Below are positions 6,701 to 60,679 of a DNA stretch of 64,000 nt, one piece after another. Under the pieces are notes generated by a model that had not been told where the DNA came from, ran no database searches, and saw nothing but the letters and a program-made list of their open reading frames with translations. A program made the position numbers and the translations under genes. Within the stretch, counting starts at the first letter, position 1. Each line of letters opens with the position of its first letter. The DNA is from Amphiura filiformis. Its lineage: Eukaryota; Echinodermata; Ophiuroidea; Amphilepidida; Amphiuridae. The DNA lies in NCBI RefSeq assembly GCF_039555335.1, contig NC_092646.1, forward strand, positions 34,044,880-34,108,879. Reading direction: 5' to 3'.

Positions 6701-9700
6701 GAACCTATAAGCTGAATTCTTTCTAGAACCTTCTGGAATAGGTCCTGCAACTGGGGATGTCCACTGTGTGTGTGTTCACATTTTATGACCTTGAATTCTT
6801 ATTATGAAAATCCACGGTTGCAGGGGAAAACAGATGCACATCCATAGCTCCCACCTTGATACTTTTAGACGATGCAACACTATCCTGGAACAAAGGACAT
6901 TCAATGTTCCTGCGCATCATCAGCGATACATATTTGTTCCGAAGTCCTCATTTGCCTGCATTTACAAACACACCCCCACCAACACATAAACAAACACATA
7001 CCTTCACGTATAGAGTCCATCATATAGCGGCAGAATTGATCTAAGAATTTCTTCAGTTGTTCTTTGTTGTGTTCATTATTGATCATTTCCTCACTGCTGG
7101 GCAGGAACCTGAGTTTGTATCTGTAATCACATCCAAAAAAGAATGTCCCTACTTGATTAGATGGTCATTATTCTAAAGGGGATTTGCCATTTGGTCTAAT
7201 ATCATTTGGTCTAATATCCATTTCGTCTACATCCATTTCGTCTAAATGCACTACGTCCAATAATCATTTGGTCCTTTAACCATTTGGTCCGATACCCATT
7301 TGGTCCGATTAACCATTTAGTCTAATAACCAATAAGTCTAAAACCATTTAGTCTAACAACCATTTAGTCTAATACTCATTTGGTCTATAACCAATAGGTC
7401 TAATAGCCATTTGGTCTACACACCATTTAGTCTTACAAGCATTTAGTTTATTCATAAATAGACGAAATGGTATTAAACTAACTGGTTATTAGACCATATG
7501 AATATTAGACCTAACGGTTATTAGATCAAATGGTTATTAGACCGAATGGATATTAAAGATATATTAGACCAAATGGTTATTAGACTATATGGTTAGTAGA
7601 CATACTGGTTATTAGACCAAACAATATTAGACTAAATGAGCATTAGACTATATGATTATTAGACTAAGTGGCAATTAGACTTTCTGGTAATAGACCCATT
7701 GAATATAGACTAAACGGGAATGAGACGAAATGGTATTAGACTAAATAGCAATAGACCTTTCTAAATATCATCGATTTTCATTCTCTAAATCAATATATTA
7801 TTGAAAAATAACACTTAATGTTTTACAAAAGTTCATTCTACAAATCATATACTTTGAAAACTTGCTTGATTTATTGTTGTCAATGAGTTATGTATGTTTT
7901 ACAAAAGTGTTGTTGTTTCAGCCCTCTTTATAACATAACTCAAGAACCACAGGACCTACAAAAGTATATCTGTGATATTTGAATTCTTCCACACACTCGT
8001 TATGAAATGATCAATGCAATTTTTGCTAAAGCTCACTACCATTGGCAAGTTGCTGTGAACTACCAAATCGCAACAGTTTAAAATAGTTGCTAACCTTAAT
8101 GCACTCATTTGCACTCATAACCGATTCTATTTGAAAATCATCCTCCCTCTTTGGAAGATTCGGATTGAATCTTTCTCAAAGGGTGTATGAAATTCAAATG
8201 GAGCTGAATAATGTGTACATTTCATTTGAAACTCATACTCCCTATGTGGAAGATATTTCCAAAATCTCCCACAGGGGTAGTGTGGATTTTAAATGGATTA
8301 GCCCAATACAGTAAACAAGCATACAATACCTGTACATGGCATCTTCTGGCATTTTCTTTCGCAAATCCAATCGTAACTCCTGAAGTTTAACCTGTGAGTC
8401 TCCATCAATCTCGCCATCTTGGGATTGGTCAATAAAATTACGGGCGTTGGGCTCAGATTCGTTAAAATTGGATAATGTACGATTGAAGAGAAACATCCGG
8501 TTCGGTTGATTTGGATCCAGATCCTTCAAACCTTGGACGATTTCACCTGTAAATATAGCAGCATGTTACACACAAAAAGTCATTTTTTTCTTTTTCTTCA
8601 AAACATATCTTTTTCATCATCACCACATGCAAAACTGTATTTACCGTACTGATGCGAGTATAGTCCCACCTTCGAGTAAAGTCCCACCCCCCAAATTTTC
8701 GATTTCAATGCAATGCATTTTGAAATCATTAATAGACTATGACATGAATACAAATGATCAATTTTCATATTAAAAATACAAAACATCTTGGAAATTTTTA
8801 AAAATTTTTTTAGGTCAACCATGAATGATCCTAGCATTTAGGTCTAGGTCCAGGGACACTACAAAACCGAAAAAATACCAAACTTTTTTTTTTTTTTTAA
8901 ATTCGAGTATAGTCCCACCCCCCAATTTTGAAAAATTTTCACCCAAAAACGGGGTGGGACTATACTCGGGTCAGTACGGTAATAACCCTTTTCCTCTGGC
9001 ACGCACCATGTTGCTGGATTTTGGTCAAAATCCATGAGAAGTTTGATCTTGATGTTATTTTGCCGTAAAAGTGATGATGTAACAGGATTAACCCATAGAA
9101 ATAGGTTAAAACAAATTTTGATCAGCCAATCGGCATGATTGTTTATCACTGACCATGGAAGTACTAAAAAATCTACTTTAGCATGACTAACCTTCAGTAA
9201 CAGACCATGTGAGTTCATTGATCATCTCTTCTGGCAGACCGCTACCTCTGATTACTGTGAACAATGCCGTTCGCATGACTTCAAACGTTTGTCTCCATTT
9301 GCCGACGGCATTTGGGCAATTCTGTGAAAACTTGGGGTAGATTGAGTCGATTGGTTGCAGAACTGCAATACGATCTGAAAAGCAAGAGGTGTTTGTGCCA
9401 CATGAAAAATATTGTAAGATTTTAACCCCCTGGACACTACTGGTCATCTAACAGCATTTCTGATTGGTTGATAACTTGAAATGCTCATTTTAATTGCCAA
9501 ATTGTTTTAACTATTTATGGTCAGACTTGTATTTGCAGATGATCTTATTAAATACCCTCCTTGATTGGTTCAAAATTGGACACTACATTCACTTTGGTCA
9601 ATCAGCAGGTAGTTCTCATAGGGTTAAGGTGTAGTCAAGACAATAGTTAAATAGTTATATTTTTGCATTTAATTCTTCACTGCAACATTAATACTATAGG

Positions 9701-12700
9701 GGATTTTATTTTCTTTCTGGGTTTGTTTTAAACTGTATTAGATCTATAGTGCCTCCAGATGCTTAAGTCAGTCATTTTCAGCAGATGCTTATTAAACTCA
9801 TGAAATGAAAGCCACAAATATAATGGGAAGTACCGTACTGACGCGAGTATAGTCCCACCCCGTTTTTGGGTGAACATTTTTCAAAATTGGGGGTGGGACT
9901 ATACTCAATTTCAAAAAAAAAAAATTATTTTTTAATTTTTTGGTTTTGGAGTGTCCCTGGACCTAGACCTAAATGCTAGGATCATTCATGGTTGACCTAA
10001 AAAAAAAAAAAAAAAAAAATTTCAAGATGTTTTGTTATTTTTAATATGAAAATTGATAATTTGTATTCATGTCATACTCTATTAATGATTTCAAAATGCA
10101 TTGAATTTGAATGCATTTTGAAATCATTAATAGAGTATGACATGAATACAAATTATCAATTTTCATATTAAAAATAACGTAAACATCTTGAATTTTTTTT
10201 TTTTTTTTTTTAGGTCAACCATGAATGATCCTAGCATTTAGGTCTAGGTCCTGGGACACTCCAAAGCCGAAAAAATAAATAACTTTAAAAAAAAATTTAA
10301 ATTTTTTTTTTTTTTTTTTTTTTTAATTTCTGAAATTTTCCGAAAGTTTGGGGGTGGGACTTTACTCGAAGGTGGGACTATACTCGCGTAAGTACGGTAC
10401 TAAGGCTGGCATTTTCGGTCGGGTAAACGGGTATTCGCCCGAGATTTTTTTTTTTTTTTTAAGTTTTTTATTTTTTCGGTTTTGTAGTGTCCCTGGACCT
10501 AGACCTAAATGCTAGGATCATTCATGGTTGACCTAAAAAAAAAAAAAAAAAAAAAAAAATTCAAGATATTTTGTTATTTTTAATATGAAAATTGATAATT
10601 TGTATTCATGTCATAGTCTATTAATTAATTAATTTTTTTTTTTGTTGCAATTTGGTACCGGTTACCCGCCCGAAAATTATGGCGGTACCGGTACAAAATT
10701 ACCCGAAAATGCCAGGCCTAGGAAGTACACACCAGGAATAATGAACAATGGGATGGGCAAATGAAATGATGTAACAAAACTGGAAGATGTAGCCTAGGTC
10801 ACAATAGGCGGTCATTAGAGGCCATTTTGTTTCCTACATGATGTTATTCATGTGTCATTATACTTTATAGTACACAAATATATCATTTAACAGTTTCCAA
10901 TTTTAAATTATATTTTGAGTATACAATATGTTCTGTAGTAAATCGATCAAATGGCGGTGATTGTTCAGGTATTATATGCTTGATAGAATTAAACCAGCTA
11001 GTCCTCCGCTGTCATTGTGATTCCAGTCACTCCAAAAGCTGTATTGACGATCGACATGCATGCGTTAAAAATGATGTAGCCTAGGTCGAACAATAGCGTG
11101 ACGTGGTTCCCGATATTTCCCCTATGAACCCTCACCCTCCTGTACACTGTACAATGTACAGACATAAAAGATACAGTGTATCTGAAGTCAAAATCAGACT
11201 TCTTCAAAAAATAAAACTACACACAATATTTTCTTCAACTTACCTAATGCATTTTCATCTATTTTGAAGCACATTTCAATCAATCCTTTAGCCTCCCTCA
11301 TCACTGGATCCTGTTCAGCCAGTCTACTGATAGATCCAAGGAAACTGTAGTACAGTGTCTCTGGGAGTGTGTAAGGGATTGGTCTCCATCCGTACTTCTG
11401 ACCCAAAATTCCAACAAAGAAAGGACCAACTGAGTTTTCCCTGTTTAGAAAATAATATACAAAATAAATGAATCAGTGAATTACTTTTAAAAGGTGAGTC
11501 GGAGGGTGCCGGCCTTAATTTGTCCAGTTTGGGTAATTTTGCTAAAAATACAGGAATGAGTCCAGGCAACCCACTGGTCACATTTCCATAATGTAACATT
11601 GCAGTTATTGAGTTATGACAAAAAGAAAGTTTTTGTTATTCCCCCCTCCCAGGAAAAATCATGCACATGCTGAGAAAAATAAACCCTATTACAATGAGAC
11701 TTGGTATCTCATGTACTGAACCAGCCCATACCTTTCCCTGTGATTGTGAGCTTTGTTCAGGCACCACTCTGACTCCTCTTAAAAAAACATTCTTACTCAT
11801 GAAATTGACAGGTATTGAGATACACATGTAGTATGTATATTCAACTTTATAGCCCACCATTGAAGTTCAAGGACAAAAATATGTTTTAAAAACTGAATCA
11901 ACATCAAACTGGGCATTTTCAATGCAAAACAATTTTGCAATTCCAGATGAAACATATTGCCACATAATAATTTGCAACCAGTTTATGAAATTGAGAAAAG
12001 TTTTGACAGCTGTAGGCCCTAGAAATCAAGAACAATTCTCAAACATTAATCTGGCTCTCTGTGTAGACCCCCTCTAAATTTGTCACCCCTGTGCCCCAAC
12101 TAAATTTCAGTTGGAAAAACAAAATTTTCAGAAAAATTACAAAACTTACAAGTGATTCAGATATTTAGGGATATGTACTCCCAGTTGAAATCCATACACC
12201 CATGGAAGACATGACTTATATACATGTAGGTAACCCATTTAAAATTCACACTCCTTGTGTAGAAGATTAAGGTCATGTCTTCCATTGAGGGTATATGAAT
12301 TCAATTGGAATTCAGGGCAATTCGTTTTTCACTGCAAGAATCAATCTTGATTCTTGCAGAATAAATTTTTGGGAATCATTTGATTCTTGCAAATCAACTT
12401 CTGTGTAAACTACAAATGTTTGCGAGAATCAACTTAGAATCATGCAAATCTTTGCAAGAATCAATTCTCTGATCCTCACTGAAATTCTGACCCAGAACTT
12501 ACTTGCATCTCTGTACTTCTTTCAAGCATATCTGAGCTGATAAATGCTGATTACAAGCGGTTGCTCGTATTCCCCATCTAAAATCTACGACATTAAAGGA
12601 CAATCCGATCTCCCTGCAGTAATCCCTTATATACGGATACACATCCTCCATCAGCAAGTCTCTCTCATGTCTCGTGTCTGTAAACGTCGAACTCACAAAA

Positions 12701-17697: not shown

Positions 17698-18016
17698 GGC
17701 ACGGTGGCTCAGTGGTTACGGCCTTGGACTCATAATCAGAGAGCTTGCTCGGCGTGCGTGGGTTCGATTCCCGTCCCACCACCGTGTTGCGCCCTTGGGC
17801 AAGGTGCTTTGCCTCGCTTGCCTCACCCCACCCAGGTGCAATGGGAAGCTGTTAGGGGTAGTCACAGTCCTTGTACTGATGGACCCTGCGCCACTTGTAG
17901 GCTGCAAACGTGGTTCCGACATATTCTAATGACGGCGGAATAAATGTAAAGCGCTTAGAGGCTGTTTACGGCATAAAGCGCTATATAAATGTCTACATTT
18001 ATTTATTTATTTATTT
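17698..18016 (+). mobile_element. Full-length tRNA-derived SINE, family S1
   Basis: The head has A box TGGCTCAGTGG (17705-17715) and B box GGTTCGATTCC (17761-17771). The body follows (GGTGCAATGGGAAGCTGTTA, GTAGGCTGCAAACGTGGTTC) and the 3' end is AAGCGCTATATAAATGTCTA, then (ATTT)n. A headless copy lies at 60488-60674. The 3' tail matches that of family S2, suggesting the same LINE mobilises both. Confidence 0.9.
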
Positions 18017-21000: not shown

Positions 21001-22010
21001 TAAATGAATTACTTAGCATATTAAGATCATATTAAATGAGAGAAACAGAAAATATATTGCACATAATAATGTTTATAAAATTTGGTGGAGATGGGAGTGA
21101 AAATGCCCTTGTAAAATAATTAAAAAGCTAAAAACTAGGAGTCTTTTTATTCCACATATTGGCCATGTACACCAGAGGGCTTTTCTGACAACGCAATGTT
21201 CTACACCTTGGTACCGACAATTGGTCAGAATTTCAGAAAACAAGAAATACAGGCAAGAGTAATATCTTAAATTAAATATTTACAAAATGACTTTGATTTC
21301 TGTATTATACTATCCCTCTGGGCCAGTGAGATTATAAAGCTACTGGCCCAGTAAAAATTTACTGGCCTAGCTTTTTCAATATTTTCTCCTGCAAAATTAA
21401 GCAATTGACAACCAAGTAAATCCCATCTTTTTGGTTTAGCCAAGTAGTATTGGCAGCCCACATAATTGCAGCCATATTGTAACAGTTGCTGAGGATGCCC
21501 TCAATATTTTTTTTTAATTCTGTTTTTTATACGATTGTAATGTACTTTTGTAAACTAACCTACCATGCAAAATTCAAGACTTTAGGTGTTGCAGTTTTGT
21601 CAAAATGGAAGATTCTTTGCTTTGATCACCTCAGTTGTTCGGCTCAAAATTAAAAGGACATATATCTGACAGTAAAAGCTAACATTTTATAGAAAAGAAA
21701 TACTAATATATTTTCATGGAATTGTTACAAAATGGCTTTAACAAGAAAACAAATTTTTATGTGTTGGGTCACTCAGGGTAGTCAACACATTCCTATAAAA
21801 TTACAAAAACTGGTCAACACAAATTTAGCATTCCCTTGGATATCAAATTCACCTCTTCTAGTCTACAAAGATTTTCTGGAGAGCCATGCTAGATTTGGGG
21901 TTCCTGGAGGTAACCCCTACTGTCTAGCGGGACCACATTTCTATAAAAACATACCCCTAGCAAGATTTCTATAACAAACATACCCTAACAAAATTTCTAC
22001 AATAATTTCT
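18020..22010. other. Intergenic, with CpG-rich patch and low-complexity DNA
   Basis: 18360-18850 is unusually CpG-rich for the window (runs such as GCGGCGCGGTACAGCGACGC), with TACGTCAC sites, and could be an unmethylated island or a repeat. 20825-21000 is CA/TC-rich low-complexity sequence. 19165-19260 and 21610-21720 share a dispersed AAAATTAAAAG repeat. An inverted pair GACGAATCCAAC/TTGGATTCGTC (about 19483 and 19770) may bound a decayed MITE. I see no gene. Confidence 0.4.
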
Positions 22011-22014
22011 GCTA

Positions 22015-22473
22015 TAAATAAATAAAATAAATGTCGGTATTTATATAGCGCCTTACCACAGATCACGGAGTGTGCAAAGCGCTGTAATTTCGCTGCCACT
22101 GTAAATCATCACAATCAGATTGCATCAACTAGGCATTGGGGAGCTGCACAGATAAATGGTGGATGTTACAATCTAAGTGCGGATAGGTTTGCGCTATTCC
22201 TTCTGCACAATGGTGGATGTTACAATCTAAGTGCGGATAGGTTTGCGCTATTCCGCTGCACAAATTCCATTGGGTGAAGGAAGTTTTGATAACCAAACAA
22301 ATATCACCAATTTTTTGAAAGACGAGGAAACCGGGATCCCGGAGAAAACCTGCGAGAGCGAGCATGGAATCGGAATAAACCAAGTGCACATGAGTCCTTG
22401 GGCCACACCGGAGCTTGAACCCGGGACCTAAGTGGTGCAAAGCGAGGGAACTACCGCTGCGCTAACTCCCCCA
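22015..22473 (-). mobile_element. tRNA-derived SINE, family S2, minus strand
   Basis: On the minus strand it begins GTTAGCGCAGCGGTAGTTCC (A box) and has GGGTTCAAGCTCC (B box). It shares the body CTCATGTGCACTTGGTTTAT with the plus copy at 27499. The 3' end is GGCGCTATATAAATACCGAC plus an ATTT-rich tail. A tandem duplication of about 55 bp (GGTGGATGTTACAATCTAAG ...) lies at about 22150-22262. Confidence 0.88.
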
Positions 22474-22474
22474 T

Positions 22475-23600
22475 GCTATATAGTTCCATTTAAAAAAATA
22501 GCCTTATTTGACCTCAGATATCCGACTTCAAAAACTTGGGAGCACATATATACATCCTAGTTTCATGAGAATCCAATATTTCACCCCTTATGACTTTAAA
22601 GGGGCAAGGTTTGATTTTTTATGTTATGTTTTCTATCATACATGATAATGATGCCTACCATTAAAACGATGTTTCCAAACAAGCAAAAATATGTATACCA
22701 ATGCACCATACATACTTCAACCACAATCCACCATATTTTTGTTCACATCATCTAAACAAAACATATCTCAGATGTTCAATTTTACTGGGGTAATGAGAAA
22801 AGTATGATCTTTCTTCTAATACCATCTGAATAAGAAAAATGGGGAATTAGTCCTGTGACTGCCCCTTCCCTCTGATCGTGAAATATACTCCTCAAAAGAA
22901 TTAAAGCATCAGATGCATATCAGCGCATTTTTGAAAACATTGGATATGATGATATTATTATTGATAATTGTGCTTGATCTTTCATTACATCACTTGTTCC
23001 CTAAGCTGCATACAAAATTCACTGATTACAAATTTCTGCCATCACCCACATCGTGAAGGGAGGGAGGAAAATGGAGGCAAAATTTCTATTTTGAAGCCAT
23101 TTTTCAAACGTCCACCAACGCCAAGGTCAAGTCACACATTGGGGGTGGAGAAAGTCATTAATGTAACCGTGCACAAAAGATGACCACCCAGCCTCCTCCT
23201 CATTTCTCTGAGGGTAGGGGTATTAATTGTGATCATTAAATGGTACAGAACATAGAGTATTCATTTATGCATTATGTTGCACTATAAGGGAGCTCAATTA
23301 TGACCCCTACCCTCAGACATGTGAGGAGGGGCCGGGGGATTATCTTTTGTGTGGTTACCTTAATGACTTTCCCCACCGAGTCAGATTTGGATCGCATACA
23401 CTAACTTGCCTCAATTTAAGTGAATTCCAGTATCACACAATAAATGGTCACCCATACCCAGTATCCCACTTCACCCGATCCACTGTGATCATTATTGCAT
23501 TACCTTGCATCACCCACAAACCCTTTGCTCAGTAAAAATGAATTTAAAATATGGTATATGTTATATGACTTCAAATGAACTTGCAAATGACCTATAAAAG
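22475..23600. repeat. Intergenic sequence with a long palindrome at 23140-23385
   Basis: The arms GAAAGTCATTAATGTAACCG ... CTGAGGGTAGGGGT and its reverse complement at 23290-23385 form an imperfect inverted repeat centred near 23262. This looks like a palindromic MITE whose outer ends I cannot fix. The rest holds nothing recognisable. Confidence 0.55.
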
Positions 23601-23625
23601 TGTTGACATATATGGTAGTACACTA

Positions 23626-23830
23626 GACAGCAAGTTGCATGCATTTTGTATCTACAGTAGACAGCAAGCTGTATGTATTGCTATCTACAGCAGACAGCAA
23701 GTTGTATACAGTAGACAGCAAGTTATATACATTGCTATCTACAGTAAACAGCCAATTCTATGCATTGCTATCTCCAGTAAACAGTTGGTTGTATACATTG
23801 CTATCTTCAGTAGACAGTAGTTTGTATGTA
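23626..23830 (+). repeat. 33-bp minisatellite, first block
   Basis: Units of the type TTGCTATCTACAGTAGACAG + CAAGTTGTATGCA (33 bp) run head to tail with some truncated units. It is separated from the next block by a MITE at about 23831-24107. Confidence 0.9.
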
Positions 23831-24107
23831 TAGTCCAACCTCTCTTATCCGGATCTCTTTTATATGGATCTATCTGTTATCTGGCTGTGAAATCTTCACA
23901 GGAAAACATGTTTTTGATGATTTTTGAATGACATCTATGTTGCATAGAGCACTCTAAAGCCATCTTTTAGTGTTTATTAGTTTCCTCCATGTTAAAACAA
24001 TCTTTTGTTGTCACAATTTCAGTACTTGGGACAGTCAATGCAGAATTACATGCAATTCACTTATCCAGATTTTCACTTATCCGGACAGTGCTTGGAATAA
24101 AAGAGGT
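23831..24107. mobile_element. pogo-like MITE inside the minisatellite
   Basis: The left end TCCAACCTCTCTTATCCGGA and the right end TTATCCGGACAGTGCTTGGA ... AAAGAGGTTGGA are inverted repeats. The CAACCTCTCTTATCCGGA pattern is typical of pogo/Tigger-type elements. Minisatellite units abut both ends. Confidence 0.75.
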
Positions 24108-24835
24108 TGGAATGTATTGCTATCTACAGTAGGTTGTGTACATTGTTATCTTCAGTAGACAGTAGGTTGTATACATTGCTATCTACAGTAGACAACAAGT
24201 TGTATACATTGCTATCTACAGTAGACAGTAGGTTGTATGCATTGCTATCTACAGTAGTATTGATATATACAGTAGACAGCAAGTTGTATACATTGCTATC
24301 AACAGCAGACAGTAGGTTGCATGCATTAATATCAACAGTAGACAGTAAATTGTATATATTGCTATCTATAGTAGACACGCTTAGAGGGCAGGTTGTCTAC
24401 ATTGATATCTCCAGTAGACAGCAAGTTGTATACACTACTATCTTTGAGTAGACAGTAGGTTGTATGCATTGCTATCTACAGTAGACTGTAAATTGTATGT
24501 ATTGCTATTTACAGTAGACAGTAGGTTGTATACATTGCTATCTTCAGTAGCTAGTAGGTTGTATACATTGCTATCTACAGTAGACAACAAGTTGTATTGA
24601 TATCTACAGTAGACAGTAAGTTGTGTACATTGCTATCTACAGTAGACAGCAAGTTGTATACATTGATATCAACAGTAGACAGTGGGTTGTATGCATTACT
24701 ATCTACAGTAGACAGTAAATTGTATATATTGCTATCTATAGTAGACAGTAGGTTATGTACATTGCTATCTTCAGTTGACAGTAGGTTGTATACATTGCTA
24801 TCTTCTGTAGACAGAAGGTTGTATACATTGTTATA
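24108..24835 (+). repeat. 33-bp minisatellite, second block
   Basis: It is a head-to-tail array of the same unit. The part from about 24375 to 24832 is nearly identical in unit order and in individual variants to 26116-26570, so it is one arm of a larger duplication. Confidence 0.92.
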
Positions 24836-25426
24836 TACTTCATTAATATATTCTTGTTCATTGATTGGTTAAAAGCGGATCACATGACCAAAAATAGTTC
24901 TACCATCAGTACTGCTATCCGTAAATAGTACCTCTAAGCCATAAATAGTATTTTTAATGTCCCGGATGAGCCGTAAATAGTACCTCCAAGCCGTAAATAG
25001 TACTTTTGACCATGTCTTCCACGTGCGGCGCATTCGATGCGACGGAACAGTTCACGCATACGCTTGAAACTGCCATAGCGTCATTTCGCGCTGCTGTAAT
25101 TGGTTAGCCCGATTTTAGGCTATTCGATTTTTTGAAGGGTAGGTTGTGCTTAAATTGGTCGTGCTGTTCACTCAAGATAGAAGCGGGAGAGTCAAAACGT
25201 CAAATGATTTTCTTTTAACAAATCAATGAACAAAGAACATATTAATGAAGTATATAAAACAAATATATACTGCCTTTATTGAAGTTCTGGTTAAAACTAT
25301 GGTCCCTCGTTGAGATCAATTAATACTATTTTCCTTCGGGCTGCGCCCTCAGGAAAATAGTACTATTGATCTCACCTCGGGCCCATAGTTTTAACCAGAA
25401 CTTCTCATGGCAGTATATATTTGTAT
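24836..25426. mobile_element. Compound inverted-repeat insertion in the minisatellite
   Basis: Two adjacent inverted-repeat modules are seen. In the first, ATACTTCATTAATATATTCT is mirrored at 25222-25256, with internal CCGTAAATAGTACCTC repeats. In the second, AATATATACTGCC ... AAAACTATGG is mirrored at 25380-25425, giving a foldback around a GC-rich loop (TTCGGGCTGCGCCCTC). The duplicated array copy at about 26565 lacks this 590 bp and shows the empty site. Confidence 0.8.
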
Positions 25427-27498
25427 ACTATCTACAGTAGACAGTAGGTTGTATACAATGCTATATACAGTAGACCAACACTAGATCTACAGTAGACAGT
25501 AAATTGTATGTATTGCTATCTATAGTAGACAGTAGGTTGCACACATTGCTATCTTCAGTACACAGCAAGTTGTATACATTGCTATCTTCAGTAGACAGTA
25601 AGCTGTATGCATTGCTATCTTCAGTAGACAGTAAGTTGTATGCATTGCTATCTACAGTAGACAGCAGTTTCTATGCATTGCTATCTATAGTAGGCAGTAA
25701 GTTGTATGCAGTAGACAGCAAGTTGTATGTATTGCTATATACAGGAGACAGCAAGTCGTATGCATTCATATCTACAGTAGGCAGTAAGTTGTATGCATTG
25801 CTATCTACAGTAGACAGTAAGTTGTCTGTATTGCTATCTACAGTTGACAGTAAGTTGTATACATTGCTATCTACAGTAGACAGTAAGTTGTATACAGTAT
25901 ACATCAATTTGTATGCATTGCTATCTACAGTAGACAACAAGTTGTATGTATTGCTATCTATAGTAGACAATAGGTTATGTACATTGCTATCTTCAGTAGA
26001 CAGTAGGTTGTATACATTGCTATCTTTAGTAGACAGTAAGTTGTATACAGTAGACATCAATTTGTATGCATTGCTATCTACAGTAGACAATAAATTGTAT
26101 GTATTGCTATCTATAGTAGACAGCAGGTTGTGTACATTGATATCTCCAGTAGACAGCCAGTTGTATACACTACTATCTTCAGTAGACAGTAGGTTGTATG
26201 CATTGCTATCTACAGTAGACTGTAAATTGTATGTATTGCTATTTACAGTAGACAGTAGGTTGTATACATTGTTATCTTCAGTAGCCAGTAGGTTGTATAC
26301 ATTGCTATCTACAGTAGACAACAAGTTGTATTGATATCTACAGTAGACAGTAAGTTGTGTACATTGCTATCTACAGTAGACAGCAAGTTGTATACATTGC
26401 TATCAACAGTAGACAGTGGGTTGTATGCATTACTATCTACAGTAGACAGTAAATTGTATATATTGCTATCTATAGTAGACAGTAGGTTATGTACATTGCT
26501 ATCTTCAGTTGACAGTAGGTTGCATACATTGCTATCTTCTGTAGACAGAAGGTTGTATACATTGCTATCTACAGTAGACAGTAGGTTGTATACAATGCTA
26601 TATACAGTAGACCAACACTAGATCTACAGTAGACAGTAAATTGTATGTATTGCTATCTATAGTAGACAGTAGGTTGCATACATTGCTATCTTCAGTAGAC
26701 AGTAGATTGTATACATCGCTATCTACAGTACCCAGCAAGTTGTATACATTGTTATCTTCAGTAGACAGTAAATTGTATGTATTGCTATCTACAGTAGACA
26801 GTAGGTTATGTACATTGCTATCTTCAGTAGACAGTAGGTTGCATACATTGCTATCTTCAGTAGACAGTAGGATATATACAATGCTATACAGTAGACAGCA
26901 AGTTGTATACATTGCTATCTTCAGTAGACAGTAGATTGTATACATTGCTATCTACAGTACACAGCAAGTTGTATACATTGCTATCTTCAGTAGACAGTAG
27001 ATTGTATACATTGCTATCTACAGTACACAGCAAGTTGTATACATTGTTATCTTCAGTAGACAGTAAGTTGTATGCATTGCTATCTACAGTAGACAGCAAG
27101 TTGTATGCATTGGTATCTACAGTAGACAGTAGGTTGTATACATTGCTATCTTCAGTAGACAGTTGTATACGTTGCACAATAAGTTGTATACAGTAGACAT
27201 CAATTTGTATGCATTGCTATCTACAGTAGACAGCAAGTTGTCTGTACTGCTATCTACAGTAGAGAGTAAGTTGTATACAGTAGACAGCAAGAAGTATGCA
27301 TTGCTGTCTTCAGTACACAGAAAGTTGTATGCATTGTTATCTACAGTAGACTGCAGGTTCTATGCATTGCTATCCACAGTAGACAGTAAGTTGAATAAAG
27401 CAGACAGCAAGTTGTATGCATTGCTATCTTCAGTAGACAGCAAGTTGTATGCATTGGTATCTACAGTAGACAGTAAGTTCAAGTTGTATGCATTGCAA
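25427..27498 (+). repeat. 33-bp minisatellite, main block
   Basis: About 2.07 kb, corresponding to roughly 60 units of consensus TTGCTATCTACAGTAGACAG + TAAGTTGTATGCA. The 33-bp period equals 11 codons, so the plus strand reads LLSTVDSKLYA repeatedly (276 open codons at 25504-26334). The minus strand reads LLSTVDSNAYN (217 open codons at 25671-26324). The core CTATCTACAGTAGACAG is a 17-bp near-palindrome (7 of 8 pairs), which is why both strands spell LLSTVDS. I do not annotate a gene here. Confidence 0.95.
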
Positions 27499-27901
27499 GT
27501 TGTAGCAGCGGTTATTCCCTCACCTTGCACCACTAAGGTCCTGGTTCAAGCTCCTGCGCACCTCAAGGACTCATGTGCACTTGGTTTATCCCGATTCCAT
27601 GCTTGCTCTCGTAGGTTTTCACCAGGATCTCTGGTTTCCTCCTGCTTTCAAAATCGGTGATTAGTTGCTTGGTTATCAAAAACTTCCTTCACCCAATGGA
27701 ATTTTGGGAGCTGCATAGATAATTGGTGGATGTTACAGTTCAAGTGCGGATAGGTTTGCGCCAAGTTCAGCTGCAACCAGCCTAATTGATGCGATCTGAT
27801 TGTGATGATTAACCATGGCAGCGAACTTACAGCGCTTTGATCCCTCTGAGATCTGGGAAAAGAGGCTATATAAAACACCAGAATTTATTTTATTTATTTA
27901 T
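27499..27901 (+). mobile_element. tRNA-derived SINE, family S2, plus strand
   Basis: The decayed head GTAGCAGCGGTTATTCCCTC and B box GGTTCAAGCTCC precede the same body as 22015-22473 (GTGCGGATAGGTTTGCGC, ATTGATGCGATCTGATTGTG). The 3' end GAGGCTATATAAAACACCAG precedes an ATTT-rich tail. It has inserted within the minisatellite, which resumes directly after the tail. Confidence 0.88.
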
Positions 27902-28125
27902 TGCTATCTACAGCACATGTTGTATGCATTGCTATCTATAGTAGACAGTAAGTTGCATGCATTGCTATCTACAGTAGACAGTAAGTTGTATGCATTGCTA
28001 TCTACAGTAGACAGTAAGTTGTATGCATTGCTATCTACAGTAGACAGTATTAAAAGTAATGCATTGCTATCAATAGTACAGGTTGTATGATTTGCTCTCT
28101 TCAGTAGGCAGTAAGTTGTATGCTT
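27902..28125 (+). repeat. 33-bp minisatellite, last plus-strand block
   Basis: Several units (TTGCTATCTACAGTAGACAG + TAAGTTGTATGCA) are close to the consensus, then the array decays around 28030-28125. Confidence 0.9.
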
Positions 28126-28925
28126 TGTATGCATGTATATATATGCATAACCTGAAGTTCCAAGAATACAAAGAAAATACTGTTTACTGCTCTCAATTAT
28201 GTCCTGCTGATTCTAGTATATAAGACTTGGAAATGTCTATTCAGGCATCGTCATCATGACCGTGACTCCATGAACGTGTACTGTACCTGTTGCCGACACA
28301 AAGTCAGGGTGCTTGTGATGCGATGTAATATCTTTTAGTTAAGCAGCAAATGTTGCTTTGCTGGTGGTTCTCGGCACCCCAATGGCGATCCCCATATATG
28401 CGTCAAATTTTGTGATTTACGGCAGGTTTTTTTCATGCTCCATAGCATGCAAGTCCATGTTTCACAGTTAGGACCTTTTCACAGCAACACATCCAACCAC
28501 ATAATGAATGCCTCAGCATTCCTGTCCTTCCATTTGTGTTACTGATTCTTCTCCACTGTAGAGAATAAAAGACGAAACTGAGTGAATGTAACTGAACAAA
28601 TGCCAATGGTCTAATTGGAATACACATCAAATGTATGCATTATTTAATTGCATGCTTGTAATATCTCTTAGTTAAGCAGTCAAATTTTTTTATATGGATT
28701 TTAAATATTGTTTTGTGAATGTGTGTCTCTGAAGCGTTAATAACCGTAAAATACTATAAAAAACGTTGGTGGGCAGAAAACAGTATCTAACATGAGTGTT
28801 ACAGAAAGCATGACTAGACTAAAAATGCACCCTCTCCCCAATGATAACAATATCCTACAAGGTCCAAATTTACAAATATGACCACTTTTTCATGTTAAAC
28901 TGGGTTGACAAACATCTTTCAATTT
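28126..28925. other. Intergenic sequence, nothing recognised
   Basis: No splice-bounded ORF, tRNA-like block or inverted terminal repeat was found. GTAATATCTTTTAGTTAAGC and GTAATATCTCTTAGTTAAGC (about 28327 and 28660) are a short direct repeat. Confidence 0.35.
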
Positions 28926-31525: not shown

Positions 31526-31529
31526 TATG

Positions 31530-31889
31530 TTAAGAGGGTACTACATCCCTGCACAATTTTGTGCCTATTTTTTGCATTTTCTCATAAATTATAGTGCATT
31601 GGTGACAAGTAAGATATGTATATTATAGGGGCAAGGACTACAACTACTGCACTGGAAATTTTATTTCAGTACAGACAACATTTGTGGGGTTACAGTCAAA
31701 AATGAGGGAAAACCAATATTTGATCAATAAATCAATAACTACTTGCCTTGAGTTGCTGAATTTTCAGTGCACTAGTTGTAGTCTTTGCCCATATAAAATA
31801 CATATCTTACTTGTCACCAATGCGATATAATTTTTTTGAGAAAATGCAAAAATAGGCACAAAATTGGCCAGGGTGTAAATACCCCTTAA
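31530..31889. mobile_element. TTAA-flanked palindromic MITE (GGGGGTACTAC), copy A
   Basis: TTAAGAGGGTACTACATCCC at the left mirrors a right end running GTGTAAATACCCCTTAA. Internal arms (GGCAAGGACTACAACTACTG and inverse) also pair. It is the most decayed of three copies (others at 42535 and 52864). Confidence 0.8.
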
Positions 31890-31959
31890 TGCAGTTTTTT
31901 CCAAGAAGGTCCTTATGCCATTCATACATGTATGTGTTCATTCTCAATTGAGTTATTTG

Positions 31960-33767: not shown

Positions 33768-34422
33768 CTTTTCAAATTGATCCTTGCTTAGCTTAATCCA
33801 GGAGCACTTTTATATTGCTAAAAACATTTGGTACCTCCTTGAGCTATAAAGCATGCATGCTCATGTTGTTATTTTTTATGTCATCTATATCATTTTCATG
33901 AACTTTGAACTGTTGAAATATGAAGTATGAACTATGACCTATAAACATGAATGATATTTTTCAGTCATAACAAAAAGTTTGTGCATCACGATGCCTCTCT
34001 GAGTATAGCTGCACGTGATTGTTTATACCATTCAAACTGTCTCATCAAAATTGAGGTGTTTCTTTCCCCTTTGTTATTTCATCAGACCCTTCCCAACTTC
34101 TGCTTCTGTTTAATAAGTATTTATTTATTCAAACTTCCTTTTTATTGCATTGAAAAATATTCTTTTTTTCTTAAAATTAATGGCCCGGCCCAACCCTGGT
34201 GTTAGATGCATCTGTCTTGCCATGTACTATGGCACGCCAAATTGGCCCATATTCATCTTTGTTTATACTATATGTGTATAAATGTTTTATATGTTACTTC
34301 ATGTTGTATGTTGGCAATTGGATTTATTGTATTGGTTACTAAGGTATACTTAAATGATGCTTACTGCTTATGTTATGACACTATTTGTATGTTTACTACA
34401 ATGATTAATGTGATTCCTCAGG

Positions 34423-37400
34423 TTGAATTTAATTATGTTAAATAACTGCAACTCCTGTCACAAAACCATTCTACCCCGTCAGCCTAATATTTTCTGTTGC
34501 CTATGTAATTCATTTTACCATACTAGATGTGTTTATACAGACACAAGGGATCACGATGACTGGTTTTGTTTCAATTGTACAGGTGATTTATTTCCATTTA
34601 ACCATTACGTAGACGATGATGAATTTAGGTTCTCGTTATATTATCATGGTAATTCTATCGATTATAATCGTTTGATGGGTATGAGATTGAATCCATTTTT
34701 GTTCGAAGAAAATCTCCACACAACTGATGATTCTAGACATCTAAATGATTATAATGTCACAGCTTCATGTAAATATGTTATTGATAACAATGATTTGACT
34801 GGATTATGTAATGATGACTTTTCTGTTCTACATCTTAACTCTCGCAGTTTTAACAAAAATTTTGATAGCATACATAATTTTATTTCAAGTTTCAATCATG
34901 CATTCAGTATAATAACCTTATCTGAAACTTGGTTTTATGAAGATAACTCTAATGTAATTGATATTGAAAATTATATTCTTTTAAGTGCCCCTCGAAAAGA
35001 AAGGAGGAGTGGTGGAACGGCTATTTATGTCCACAACTCACTTTCTTACCGTATCAGAGATGATTTGAAACTTTGTACAAATGACATTGATTTACCCCAT
35101 TCAGAATCTGTTTTTATTGAAATTCTAAGTCCCACCACCAAGAATACAATTATTGGTTCAATTTATCGTGCACACAGAACTGATGTTAATTTATTTATTA
35201 CCGATCTTGATCATAGCCTCAACACTATTTCTGCTGAAAACAAAAATTGTTATATTTCCGGCGATTTTAATTTAGATCTACTAAAACACAGTGAAAATGA
35301 TATTATTGATAATTTTCTGGAAACATTCCATAATAATAGTATGTATTCATTGATTGATAGACCTACCAGAGTGACACCTACTACTGCAACTTTGATTGAT
35401 AATATTTTTACGAATGTTCTTGACCATCAAATCAAATCTGGTGTGTGTGTAGTAGGTCTTACTGACCATTTTCCAATCTTTCAATATACAAAATCAATGC
35501 CACTTCGATTTATTCAACCACACATCGGCACTACTCGCACTTATAACCAAAGTTCAATTGAACATTTTTATAATCATTTGAAATTGATTGATTGGAAGTT
35601 TGTCACTGATATGACATCTGCTGATGGTTCGTACGAAGCATTTATTAGTAAATTCCTTCATATTTATAACATTCATTTTCCTGTTAAGGCACGCGGTACT
35701 AGAAATTCACGTAACCGGCATATACCACGTAAACCATGGATCACATCTTTAATTCTCAAATCAATTCACAGAAAAGAAAAGCTCTATAGGAAATATATTG
35801 GTCATCCTTCATCAAGCAATAAAAATACTTATATTCCTTACCGCAACAAACTTACTTCCCTTATAAGAGCCGCAAAAAAGAATTATTATGCAAACAAACT
35901 CGAAAATTGTAAACATAACACTAAACTTATTTGGAATACCCTAAATGATATTCTCGGTCGCAAAAAAAAACACCCTCTACCGTCATTTTTCTTCGATGAT
36001 AACGCTCACCATGCGCAAATTATAGATCAAAACATAATAGCTAATAAATTCAATTCTTATTTTGCAAATGTAGGTCCTAACCTAGCCCACAAAATCCAAA
36101 CTGATGCTAATTTTCATACTTTTCTGCGCAATATTAATTCCCCAAATAATTCTCTGTTTTACTCCAACTGACCCCGAGGAAATGATAGATATCTGCCGTT
36201 CATTCAAATCAGGTAGAAGTAGTGGCTTTGATGAAATACAACCCGATATTGTTAAATCCGTCCGCACAATCATAGCTTCTCCTCTTGCTCATATAATTAA
36301 TTTATCATTAACCACCGGCATTGTCCCAAATCAGTTAAAAATGGCCAAAGTCATTCCTATTTTCAAGAACGATGACCGGCACAAATTTGGTAATTATAGG
36401 CCAATATCCGTCCTCCCTGTTTTTTCGAAAATTCTTGAGCGAGTTGTGCACAATAGATTATATGGTTTTATTTCAAGTCTCAATATTTTGCATCAATCTC
36501 AATTTGGTTTTCGCCCAAATCATTCTTCTTTTATGGCTATTATGGATGCATACAACAAAATTGTCACTGACTTAGATAACAATCAGCATAGTGTTGGGAT
36601 CTTCCTGGACCTCTCGAAGGCATTTGACACGCTAAACCATGACATTCTTTTATCTAAACTAACTCACTACGGTGTACGTGGCGTTGCCTTCGAGTGGTTC
36701 AGGAACTACCTCATGAATAGGCCACAGTATGTTTCGTTTAATAACGTTAAATCATCATTAATTCATCCCACTTGCGGAGTTCCTCAAGGTTCAATTTTAG
36801 GTCCTTTACTTTTCATCTTATATTTGAATGATATTGTTTACTCCTCAAAGTTTTTCAAATTTATAATTTTCGCAGATGACACTAATCTCCTGGCTTCCCA
36901 TAAAGACTTCACCTATCTTATCAACACAATAAATCAAGAATTATGTAACATTTCCAACTGGCTTAAAGCAAATAAATTATCACTCAATATAAATAAAACT
37001 AAGTACATTATTTTTAAAAACAGATTTAGCAATCGAATGTATCACAATTCAGCCATATATGTTGACAATGTATCAATTTCAAAGGTTTCTTCTATTAAAT
37101 TCCTTGGTATCACACTGGATGAGTCCTTTACTTGGAACCACCACACAACATATATAACTAATATTGTGTCCAAATATTCTGGTATTTTATTTCGGCTCAA
37201 ACATGTCTTACCTTTAAAAACATTGTTTGCATTATATATAAGTTTGGTCTTGCCACACATTAACTATTGTAATATTATTTGGGCTGATCAAAATAACTGT
37301 AACTTAAACAAAATTCACATTAAGCAAAAGCGAATAATTCGATTGTGTTCGAATTCTCACTTTCTTGCCCACACTCCGCCCCTTTTTGCTTCATTCAATA

Positions 37401-37702
37401 GTCTCACAGTGTATGATATCCACAAATTGCAGAAAGCAATTTTCATGTATAAATTTTATAATGATCTTCTACCAGATATTTTTGCAAATTATTTTATTAA
37501 AGCTAGTACGATCCATACACATAATACTAGATCATCTGATATGTATAGAGCACATCATTTTAAAAATGATTTAGCCCGTAACACTGTTAGACGACAAGGT
37601 CCTATACTATGGAATAATGTTAGTTTAAATACCAAAAATTCACTTACTCTGATAAGTTTCAAAAATAAGTACAAATGTGAGTTATTATCTCGTTATGAAT
37701 AA
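34423..37702 (+). pseudogene. LINE ORF2: PHD finger, endonuclease, reverse transcriptase (frameshifted)
   Basis: Frame 1 (34423-36171) starts with a PHD-type zinc finger: CNSC, CCLC, H-x2-C and WFCFNC, a C4HC3 pattern at residues about 5-54. An AP-type endonuclease follows (LHLNSRSF, ITLSETWF, SGDFNLDLL, GLTDHFPIF). Frame 2 (36104-37702) carries the RT: NYRPISVLPVFSKILE, FLDLSKAFDTLNHDIL, GVPQGSILGPLLF and the catalytic FADD, with a tail ending LLSRYE. The frames overlap around 36104-36171, and one indel there breaks an otherwise long ORF of about 1090 residues. The missing RNase H and the PHD finger fit CR1-like elements. Confidence 0.85.
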
Positions 37703-39104: not shown

Positions 39105-39660
39105 ACAGCAAGTTGTTTGTTATTTTGCTACATGTATCTTTGGTAGACAACATATTAGCTCATATTCTATACTTGATTTTTTTTTACACAGGAAGTTCTA
39201 GATGCCTTGCTACATGTATCGGCAATCTACAGGCAACTTGTCTACTGAAGCAAGCAAGCACAGATTTTGTTGCATACAACTTGCAATCAACTGCAAAGAC
39301 AGCAAGGTATACAACTTACTGTCTACTGAAGATAGCAAGGCATACAAACTGAAGATAGCAAAGCATACACATTGCTGTTTGCTGAAGATAGTAAGGTGTA
39401 CAACTTAATTGCTTACCGGTACCAGCTTGCTGTCTTCTGACTATTTACAAACATATAACATGTTAGCTACTAAAAATAAAAACTTAATAAAAAAAAATAA
39501 AAAAATTTGTTGTATACTGTAGATAGCAAGGGCAGGCATACAACTTGCCATCTACTGATAATAGCAATGCATACATCTTGTTGTATACATACTGTAGATA
39601 GCAAGAGTAGGCATACAACTTGGCATAGTATCTACTCATAATAACAAAGCATACCTCTTG
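39105..39660 (-). repeat. Minisatellite, mostly inverted orientation
   Basis: After a short plus-oriented stub (ACAGCAAGTTGTTTGTTATT), units read on the minus strand: ACTTACTGTCTACTGAAGAT + AGCAAGGCATACA. They are more diverged than the 23.6-28.1 kb array and interrupted by AT-rich stretches. Confidence 0.8.
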
Positions 39661-39661
39661 T

Positions 39662-40112
39662 TTTCAACAACTCTTCCTGTACCTTTGTACAGAAGCCAAG
39701 CGTTATTAATCCGTGATGAATCCACACTTTTCCAGTACCGTATACACCAGGTTAGCGTGTGACGTGTTACGTGTGAGTGCATAAAATTCATCATTTTGGA
39801 ACTTATGTGTAAACACTTTCGTAATGTTCATTGTTATGAAAGTAGCAGCTAACTTTACCACTTTTAGTTTTATTGCTGATATCAATATCAACAGAGAAAT
39901 CACTGATCATCTTGTAAGGTTGAGTGGCAATGACAAACGGATATTCGAATGGGAAGAATCATGTGAATTAGACGATATTTAGCTTGTTTTTTCGCCGTTG
40001 TTTCACCGTTGTTTATGACCGATTAACAACTCATGAGTAAACCACGCGAGACGACGTGGACACATCGTTGTTAATCGGTGATGAACAACGATGAAACATG
40101 ATTGAATCCCTA
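39662..40112. repeat. Dispersed repeat with GTTGTTAATCGGTGATGAAC ends, copy 2
   Basis: It matches 14810-15715 without the 402 bp insertion. It is flanked on both sides by inverted minisatellite units, so it inserted into the array. The CpG hairpin of copy 1 is reduced to one partial arm here. Confidence 0.8.
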
Positions 40113-40425
40113 ACTCTACTGTAAGAAGCAAGACATACACTGTACAACTTGCTGTCTACTGAAGAGTGAAGATAGTAAGGTATACAAGTTGCTGTCTATT
40201 GAAGATAGCAAGGTGTACAACTTGCTATCTATTGTAGATAGCAAGGCATACCAGCTTCCTGTCTACTGAAGAAAGAAAGCATATCATGTGTTGCCTACTG
40301 AAGATATGTATGTAGCACAGCATATAACTTGCTGTCTACTGTAGATGGCTTAGCATGATAGCAATTCTACTGTACAATGTAGGTAGTAAGACATGTCTAC
40401 TGAAGATAGCAATTCCAAAAAAGAT
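40113..40425 (-). repeat. Minisatellite, inverted orientation, last block
   Basis: Units such as ACTTGCTGTCTACTGAAGAT and AGCAAGGTATACAA run to about 40410, then decay. Confidence 0.8.
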
Positions 40426-40429
40426 GACA

Positions 40430-42530
40430 GTTTGATCATGGTACCATAATATACATAAGGACCAGTGATTACAATGACATAATTTCATTGATAGCGCTTT
40501 ACTTCTGGGTGATTTCAAAAACTTAGATGAAAGAAAGGTCCAATATTTGTTTGTAGCGGCCGTGGCGGCATTCACTGTTTTAAAAAATTACCCCCTGCTA
40601 CTGGAACGTCTCAGGACCCTTTTATAACATGTAAATTTGTCTCTAATAAACGCCTGTTAGGAAAAAATTGGGTAAACCATGTAAAAAATAAGCGCCCACC
40701 CATAATGACTTTGTTAAGCGTCCTGGGTGCTTATTAGAATGAATACGGTACTCTTTATTTCATCACTCTGCATAAGCAGTACACACAAAACTTGTCTATT
40801 GTTGACAAATTTTTTTTCACCAACGCCTTTGTTTACCGACAGCCAGATAAACCAACGCCATGAGCTACGCCTTAATGTACTCGAGAATTCTAGCTTCAAA
40901 TTTGCACACGATAGTTACGCATTCGATGCGTTTTTTGTTTTTGTTTTTTTACGATAATAAAAGATTGAGAATGTGCCAAAAACTTGGGACATGGGTTCCA
41001 GTTATATGCATATGCATGTACTTTAGGATTTTACCACTCTAGATTTTATAAAAGTCATAGAATTGATTAAAAAGCAGTACTTTCGGAATTACTGCATGAC
41101 TGTGGGCACCAAACCATCGAATTTTCACGTGTACAATGTTAATGTGTATACACAAATTGTATTGAGTTGAGTATTGCTTAAGCTTACCGTGCTTTAATAC
41201 TCACTCACACGCTGTCTAAATAAGTTCAGTTCGTAAACATTGGTAAACAAAAGTACTACGATCTTCTTGATCTTACCAGAACTGACAACACAAATCCGTA
41301 GCAATCTGGCGACTTTGGTCATAAATTAACACACAAATTACGTGGAAAGTTATTGCTATACTCACTACACAACCAGGCACACAACACGGCATCGCCAAAG
41401 TACGCTGTTCAATATTTGTAAACAAAGTTGAAGACCCCGCTGAAGTGTGTTGACCATATTTGGAGAGTGACGTCATTCACTCTTACGCTGCCTTTAGTTG
41501 GATTCATTTTAAAACAAAATGAGCAGACTGATGCAATGCAGCGCAATCGCGCAATTTACTCTCGCACCTTTCTCTAAAATGAACTATCCAGGGGTTCTGG
41601 ATTGTGCTGACATTGCTGATACGGAAATTATGATGACATCATACACACAGTTTGCATAGATATGAGAAAATCCCAGGGGCGGATAGTACTACTGACAAAA
41701 CGTTGTGCAATCCACTGTTTACTAATATGCTCATACATGTAGTACTTGGTTGCATTTCCAGTATAAATATGAGTAACAAAATCTCTATTGCACCATATAG
41801 ATATAGTTGGTTACTGCAAGAGGTACAACACTTCTGACACCTGCCAACATCTGGTGGGCCACTAGAGCAAACGGTTTAACCTGGTAAGTCATTTTTGTGA
41901 GCTCAATTCAAACTTGTATGTAATTTTGCTGGAGAAACAGCAACAAATTTGCTCATGGATGCCCTCGCATTCGTGCAAGCTTTGCGTTAGAGAAAATGCA
42001 TGCTTCAACAAATGTAATTACTTCAGTACTGCATGACTGTACCAGGGTCGATATTTTGGCAAGAATCAGAGAATTGATTCTCAAAATGATTTTTTTAATG
42101 GTTTGTGAGAATGAACATTTGATTCACATAAAGTTTTAGTAAACAACGTTATATATTAACTGATTCTCAACAAATTCTAGTTGTGATGATTAAGAATCAA
42201 TATTGATTCCCCAACTACAACAAAATAATGGTTGATTTATAAGTTATTACAGCTCGGAGATGATCTTTGTTTGAATATTGTTGTTGATTTGGGATAATGT
42301 TGCTCGAGAAACACTAGCAACGAATTTGATTGTGGATGCCCTCGCAAAGCAAAGCTTTGCGTTAGAGAATATGCTCAAACAAGGATAATGGGAACAGGTT
42401 GAAGCAAATTGTTTTATACTGTGCTATGAAAGTACCAATCCCGGGTACCAATACCGTATGTCAAAATGTTTTCAGAAAATCAATCAAACTCAAGTTCATG
42501 TTTGAATAACATACAATGTATATTTTAAGG
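40430..42530. other. Intergenic region 5' of the TROVE gene
   Basis: It holds a fragment of the 15096 element (about 40880-40930), the inverted mate of the 16748 repeat (41450-41512, with TGACGTCA), and a duplicated block of about 75 bp (GGATGCCCTCGCA ... CTTTGCGTTAGAGAA at about 41960 and 42330). AGAATCAGAGAATTGATTCT palindromes lie at 42060-42215. The noncoding first exon of the TROVE gene may lie here, but I cannot place it. Confidence 0.4.
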
Positions 42531-42534
42531 GGGT

Positions 42535-42888
42535 ACTACACCCCTGCCCAATTTTGTGCCTATATTTTTGCATTTTTCTCAAATATCATAGCGCATTGGT
42601 GACAAGTAAGATACATGTATGTATATTATAGGGGCAAGGACTACAACTACTGCACTGGAAATTTTATTTCAGCACAGACAACAGTTGTGGAGTTACAGTA
42701 AAAATGAGGAAAACCAATATTTGATCAATAAATCAATAACTACTTGCCTTGAGTTGCTGAATTTTCAGTGCAGTAGTTGTAGTCCTTGCCCCTATAATAT
42801 ATATCTTACTTGTCACCAATGTGCTATAATTTATGAGAAAAATGCAAAAATAGGCACAAAATTGGGCAGGGGTGTAGTACCCCCTTAA
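42535..42888. mobile_element. TTAA-flanked palindromic MITE (GGGGGTACTAC), copy B
   Basis: TTAAGGGGGTACTACACCCC and its perfect inverse bound 354 bp whose arms can pair over nearly their whole length. It lies about 450 bp upstream of the TROVE 5' UTR acceptor. Confidence 0.9.
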
Positions 42889-43334
42889 TAGGAATACTAG
42901 TATAAACATGCGAAAATAATGTCTGGTGATAAATAATCAACTCACCAGGATTTTAGAGGCCTATTTGTTGGGGAAAAAACTTAATTTTTTGTATGTAAAT
43001 TCCAGTATTAATACCCTTCACATGGTGTGTAAACATGCATAACCATGTACTTGTATACGGTACTCAGAAAAAGGAAAATATTCTGAGTGTAGTCTATGCA
43101 GACTCAATAACATCAAATTGCACAACAGTGTGCCATCTGACTGCATATCATTGATCAGTGCCAATTAAGCTTTAAAAATACCGGTACTCTTGGTTTTCAA
43201 TGTAATGCAAGAAAATATGTTTGATCAACTTTATTATTTGTCATATTTTTTACATATTTAATTTGTTTTTAAATTGCTGTTTGTTTCTTTATTTATTGAT
43301 TGATTAAATTCATTTATTTTCTTTTTTAATACAG

Positions 43335-60487: not shown

Positions 60488-60674
60488 CACCCCACCCAGG
60501 TGCAATGGGAAGCTGTTAGGGGTTGTCACAGTCGTTGTACTGATGAACCCTGCGCCAATTGTAGGCTGCAAACGTGGTTCCGACATATTCTAATGACGGC
60601 GGAATAAATGTAAAGCGCTTTGAGGCTGTTTACGGCATAAAGCGCTATATAAATATCTACATTTATTTATTTAC
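60488..60674 (+). mobile_element. SINE family S1, 5'-truncated
   Basis: It lacks the tRNA head and starts at ACCCCACCCAGGTGCAATGG. From there it matches 17831-18016 closely down to AAGCGCTATATAAATATCTA and the ATTT tail. A G-run (TTTTGGGGGGGGGAGGG) precedes it. Confidence 0.9.
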
Positions 60675-60679
60675 TTGGC

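Follow-up and report, generated by a model that had tools for sequence, protein, structure and literature searches.

The window analyzed here is a stretch of 64,000 nt from the ophiuroid Amphiura filiformis (assembly GCF_039555335.1, contig NC_092646.1, positions 34,044,880 to 34,108,879 of the forward strand), and all coordinates below refer to this window. A tandem-repeat scan revealed a degenerate minisatellite with a 33-bp unit at 23619-28127, comprising approximately 100 copies, most of which are imperfect. A first-pass annotation of the sequence had described a 33-bp minisatellite running over 23626..28125; the tandem array is confirmed, but it is not continuous, as three inserts break it (Table 1). 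Two long stop-free frames, one on each strand, lie within its longest segment, and a second array of the same unit is found elsewhere in the window. Judging from the sequence, we consider it highly probable that the feature is a non-coding minisatellite that has grown partly by block duplication.

Table 1. Positions of the two 33-bp arrays and of the inserts, duplicated block and open frames of the first array
Feature	Position	Strand	Remarks
33-bp array, segment 1	23619..23832	+	repeat scan and alignment
Insert taken to be MITE-like	~23833..24114		short inverted ends TCCAACCTCT...AGAGGTTGGA; boundaries set by eye
33-bp array, segment 2	24118..24835	+	as aligned; final five bases shared with the beginning of the 597-bp insert
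406-bp block	24439..24844	+	near copy at 26173-26578, 95.8% identical, ungapped
597-bp insert	24831..25427		two inverted-repeat modules
33-bp array, segment 3 (longest)	25425..27500	+	repeat scan and alignment
Stop-free frame, 286 codons, 0 Met	25474..26334	+	not considered a gene
Stop-free frame, 231 codons, 3 Met	25671..26366	-	not considered a gene
Dispersed repeat inside the array	~27505..27904	+	inverted second copy at 22011-22460
33-bp array, segment 4	27900..28128	+	repeat scan and alignment
Second array of the 33-bp unit, more degenerate	39238..40413	-	aligned pieces 39238-39440, 39500-39662 and 40135-40413

Structure of the 33-bp array

Minisatellites consist of head-to-tail units of roughly 10-100 bp. 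Cyclic alignment of the array to its consensus, performed in four segments, yielded 106 rows including partial end rows, and 70 of these rows are gapless 33-mers, so that a head-to-tail arrangement with a period of 33 bp is evident. The majority consensus of the unit is CTATCTACAGTAGACAGTAAGTTGTATACATTG. Variability across the unit is highest at position 28 (A 53, G 42, T 1; n = 96), where G is a frequent alternative, and at positions 20 (A 63, G 36; n = 99), 18 (T 63, C 29, A 3; n = 95) and 7 (A 70, T 26, C 3, G 2; n = 101). Six sites in the array (23702, 25702, 25888, 26041, 27184 and 27271) show one and the same shortened junction, TTGTATRCAGTAKAC, which reflects either a recurrent loss of 12 bp or a single loss that was spread by copying.

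Minisatellites are also characterized by changes in the number of whole units or blocks, and such changes are seen in three within-array block pairs, all of which were given by a diagonal scan. Besides the 406-bp block and its near copy, these are 25424-25594 and 26561-26731 (171 bp, 93.6% identical) and 26884-27065 and 26950-27131 (94.0% identical). No blocks appeared in a BLAST comparison of the sequence with itself when the filter was set to 94% and 120 bp. The array is like other minisatellites, or variable number tandem repeats (VNTRs), in its 33-bp head-to-tail unit, its variant units and its multi-unit block duplications, and unlike them in the quasi-palindromic nature of its unit. In other words, it is an ordinary minisatellite with a somewhat unusual unit.

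Among the three interruptions, the first is an insert that we take to be similar to a miniature inverted-repeat transposable element (MITE), with no family assigned, and the third is a dispersed repeat that, by eye, is presumably like a short interspersed nuclear element (SINE), as a candidate only. The arms of the two modules in the 597-bp insert are located at 24831-24888/25199-25257 and 25281-25320/25365-25404, and the final bases of the 406-bp block extend into this insert. Since block pairs lie on both sides of the 597-bp insert, the duplicate copy crosses the site without the insert, and the insert-free site is indeed present in the internal duplicate at 26532-26598. The simplest order of events would be block duplication first and later insertion of the 597-bp element into one copy, although the insert may instead have been lost from the second copy.

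Open frames on both strands

In the majority consensus, a single frame is free of stops on each strand, reading LSTVDSKLYTL on the plus strand and NVYNLLSTVDS on the minus strand, as the first-pass annotation had claimed. The peptides that it gave, LLSTVDSKLYA and LLSTVDSNAYN, match these frames except for a variable residue set by position 28. When C occupies position 18, as it does in 29 of 95 cases, a second plus frame is opened. The long runs reported at that stage (276 open codons on plus and 217 on minus) also exist, but their lengths have to be corrected to 286 and 231 codons, respectively.

We compared this openness with 20,000 random 33-mers of the window's composition and with 20,000 33-mers taken from the window outside the arrays, each tandemly repeated. 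Both strands were open in 78.3% of the former and in 83.9% of the latter. For run length, we generated 3,000 arrays of random window 33-mers modelled on 25425-27500, which carried the observed substitution columns, transition/transversion classes and indels of the 33-bp array. The median longest run in these control arrays was 226 codons on the plus strand and 219 on the minus strand; the better strand attained 286 codons in 54.6% of them and the worse strand 231 codons in 25.2%; both observed lengths were matched together in 23.3%. The double openness of the array is unremarkable and expected by chance, in agreement with the earlier suggestion that it might be pure geometry. Both strands are open because the 33-bp period comprises whole codons, because 11 codons are too few for stops to be likely in all three frames, and because a near-palindromic unit yields nearly the same frame on each strand.

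Tests for coding constraint

The presence of long stop-free frames on both strands is nevertheless what a repeat protein translated from one or both strands would require, and we looked for signs of constraint in the unit variants. Substitutions were collected from rows of at least 30 letters, with shorter rows excluded, giving 282 cells and 55 distinct changes, and expectations were obtained by moving identical base changes to random columns carrying the same base. Stops were created by 3 of the 55 distinct changes in the plus frame (2.7 expected) and by 3 of 55 in the minus frame (2.0 expected). The first-pass annotation had held that an absence of transcripts from either strand, together with variants introducing stops as often as chance, would speak for an ordinary minisatellite; as regards the sequence half of this condition, such a frequency is what we found. 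Synonymous changes numbered 15/55 in the plus frame (15.4 expected) and 13/55 in the minus frame (14.1 expected). When all cells were counted, the minus frame contained 7 stops against 6.9 expected, and synonymous cells amounted to 76 for plus (95.1 expected) and 102 for minus (90.9 expected). Variation by plus-frame codon position was 114/91/77 cells, and three of the 70 gapless units carry a stop in the minus frame. Length anomalies between full units, a count of 16 that excludes some irregular units at the ends of segments, break the frame in nine cases and keep it in seven (six of net -12 and one of net -15). The longest ATG-started run on the plus strand within 25425-27660 is 20 codons.

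Several observations weigh against a wholly non-coding array. Stop cells in the plus frame were fewer than expected (4 vs 8.3), with so wide a spread (P = 0.36) that weak constraint may exist; all 70 gapless units are free of plus-frame stops, a hint that is not significant; the most frequent length anomaly, a net change of -12 in 6 of 16 cases, preserves the frame; and on the minus strand of 25425-27660, runs opened by ATG reach 128 and 115 codons, the former being the longest there. In the array variants, stop depletion and synonymous excess were not significant, and frameshifts were not depleted.

Pfam searches gave three matches for the plus frame, two of which exceeded the whole-protein cut-off, namely Baculo_PEP_C (41.4 bits, cut-off 38) and DraK_HK_N (32.2 bits, cut-off 26.4). 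However, no single stretch of any of these matches passes by itself; we read these scores as sums over the repeats and dismissed the matches. The minus frame had no match in Pfam. Given that the openness is expected by chance, that no signal of constraint was seen, that 9 of the 16 length anomalies break the frame and that the 286-codon plus frame contains no methionine, we rejected the translated repeat, which we regard as highly improbable. The earlier option of a bidirectionally translated repeat is thus not upheld, and the array lacks a coding signature in the tests run, as would be the case for a non-coding minisatellite.

Self-complementarity of the unit and the hairpin question

The unit does contain a 17-bp near-palindrome with 7 of 8 pairs, as had been noted in the first-pass annotation. 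Among shuffled units, 4.5% have a 7-of-8 palindrome, as do 6.0% of the 33-mers taken from the window. The symmetry is wider than this palindrome. Comparison of the unit with its own reverse complement gave 22/33 matching positions for the T18/A28 variant, 24/33 for C18/A28, 20/33 for T18/G28 and 22/33 for C18/G28, and the consensus of the second array gave 26/33. The chance of 20, 22, 24 and 26 matches was 0.14, 0.030, 0.005 and 0.0006 in shuffled units and 0.12, 0.036, 0.008 and 0.0018 in window 33-mers; since the variants were chosen after the fact, the smallest P values call for caution. Six other tandem consensus units of the window, which were hand-picked and two of which represent one family, showed no enrichment in self-complementarity (P 0.84-0.99).

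These features are consistent with a hairpin-driven minisatellite, in which the unit would act as a fold-back seed and single-unit hairpins or cruciforms would cause slippage and thereby growth and shrinkage of the array. The folding of four-unit tandems was calculated for the C18/A28, T18/A28 and T18/G28 variants. The C18/A28 tandem folded better than approximately 99% of controls on both strands (P 0.013 or less), whereas the folding of the two T18 variants was not clearly unusual (P 0.04-0.20). When natural stretches were folded as DNA, one of six was strong (z = -3.48) and the other five ranged between -0.20 and -1.27. The mean over 39 array tiles was somewhat better than the background (-13.6 kcal/mol on plus and -15.4 on minus vs -10.7), but 20% (plus) and 13% (minus) of 600 background tiles reached the array means.

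We also performed a covariation test on 16 pairs of the symmetric structure in 40 of the 70 gapless units. Pairs were formed in 73.3% of cells compared with 73.8% in shuffles, 487 of 500 shuffles equalled or exceeded the data in pairing, and pairs with a two-sided change numbered 2 vs 3.1 in shuffles. There was no excess over shuffles of compensatory changes that keep the stem in these units. Sliding the partners by 1-3 columns lowered the pairing to 30-45% and the covariation score to 0.038-0.084 vs 0.138; these controls favour the structure, as expected, since it was derived from the consensus. We rejected selection for the stem, as neither compensatory changes nor pairing rose above shuffles, and selection for a hairpin is not supported. 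Moreover, the three detected expansions are copies of multi-unit blocks, for which no hairpin is required. The earlier option of hairpin-driven expansion is thus favoured by the folding of C18 tandems and opposed by the lack of an excess of compensatory changes and by the block copies. We regard such expansion as possible though rather unlikely; it is a variant of a minisatellite grown partly by block duplication and is compatible with it.

The second array and the origin of the unit

The second array is inverted relative to the first and lies 11 kb apart from it. Its consensus differs from that of the first at two of 33 positions, C18 and C30, each of which adds two self-complementarity matches (22 to 24 to 26). 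By eye, this consensus can be arranged into 12-bp arms, GTAGACAGCAAG and CTTGCTATCTAC, with 11/12 pairs and an 8-base loop. Stops are present in 17 of the 18 frames of its three aligned pieces. Outside the two arrays, a profile of the unit gave no match with E below 0.2. An Rfam search gave no matches at gathering scores, and the exact 29-base unit pattern had no matches in viral and prokaryotic contig collections, a result that is little informative for an animal repeat.

One speculation is that the 33-bp unit arose from a small, near-perfect inverted repeat, whose ancestral hairpin would have driven both the amplification and the two orientations, and that the first array would have drifted to T18 and A30. 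We consider this origin unlikely. If it is true, the two arrays provide a natural comparison of two versions of one unit that differ in how palindromic they are.

The occurrence of two arrays in opposite orientation would also fit a mobile carrier: the array would form the inside of an element resembling a Helitron or a MITE, which would have brought the unit to both sites. Satellite arrays joined to Helitron-superfamily elements, with the satellite repeats as parts of them, have been described in molluscs, with satellites named BIV160 and Cg170 (PMC5139131; see also PMC7492417). The present arrays are similar in lying among transposable-element sequence; however, the molluscan names suggest units longer than 33 bp, and no carrier element or shared flanks were found here in a search for inverted pairs of at least 25 bp and a comparison of flanks. 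BrickBuilt is a minisatellite with a 23-nt unit inside a MITE of Porphyromonas gingivalis (PMC4596501). It also combines a short tandem unit with inverted repeats, but it is bacterial and its array is within the element, whereas here elements interrupt the array. Within 22000-28600, no inverted pair of at least 25 bp brackets the array, a search that left shorter terminal repeats and Helitron-type ends aside; of the 10 inverted pairs in this region, five join copies of the dispersed repeat, three lie in the 597-bp insert and two in the left flank. The flanks of the two arrays (0.6-0.8 kb) share only two 11-bp matches (E = 0.39). On the basis of inverted pairs of at least 25 bp and of the flank comparison, we set a carrier element aside, and a mobile-element-borne array seems very unlikely.

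Other features of the window

The window contains at least 289 open reading frames (ORFs) of at least 55 aa, from which ten were picked by eye for Pfam and one for PDB. The ten gave only weak, below-cut-off matches for two of them in Pfam, and the one had no matches in PDB. An element similar to a long interspersed nuclear element (LINE) is located at 34414-37702, where an endonuclease-like frame (Exo_endo_phos, E 3.4e-4, 20.9 bits, under the Pfam cut-off of 24.5) overlaps a reverse transcriptase frame (RVT_1, E 4.6e-37). On the minus strand, the frame at 5220-5399 has a weak AAA-ATPase-like match (AAA_16, E 0.004, below the cut-off) and the frame at 12499-13050 matches DUF4062 just above the cut-off (E 1.7e-5); it is our guess that these could be exons of one gene.

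Many inverted-repeat elements are found across the window and, like the long LINE-type reverse transcriptase frame and the DUF4062 match, are in keeping with an animal genome. A palindromic element of ~360 bp is present in three copies (31526-31890, 42521-42889 and 52863-53221) with mutual identities of 89.6-91.5%, each of which is 76-79% self-complementary. A 355-bp palindrome at 9928-10282 is 93.6% self-complementary and has partial copies at 8707-8981 and ~10451-10625. A 189-bp repeat pair (17824-18012 and 60488-60676) is 96.3% identical. Two back-to-back, inverted 16-bp minisatellite arrays occupy 7187-7756, with CCATTTGGTCTAATAA on the left and TAGACCAAATGGTTAT on the right; these units are reverse complements up to rotation and would form a large fold-back.

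Growth of the array and implications

We propose that a 33-bp quasi-palindromic unit was amplified in tandem and that the array grew partly through the copying of multi-unit blocks. The units would have mutated without detectable coding constraint, and three inserted elements have interrupted the array. For the growth itself, we infer unequal exchange or replication slippage. The array also carries a caution: when the period of a tandem repeat is divisible by three, long open frames on two strands are the expected outcome. Therefore, before overlapping ORFs in repeats are called genes, they should be compared with random units of equal period.

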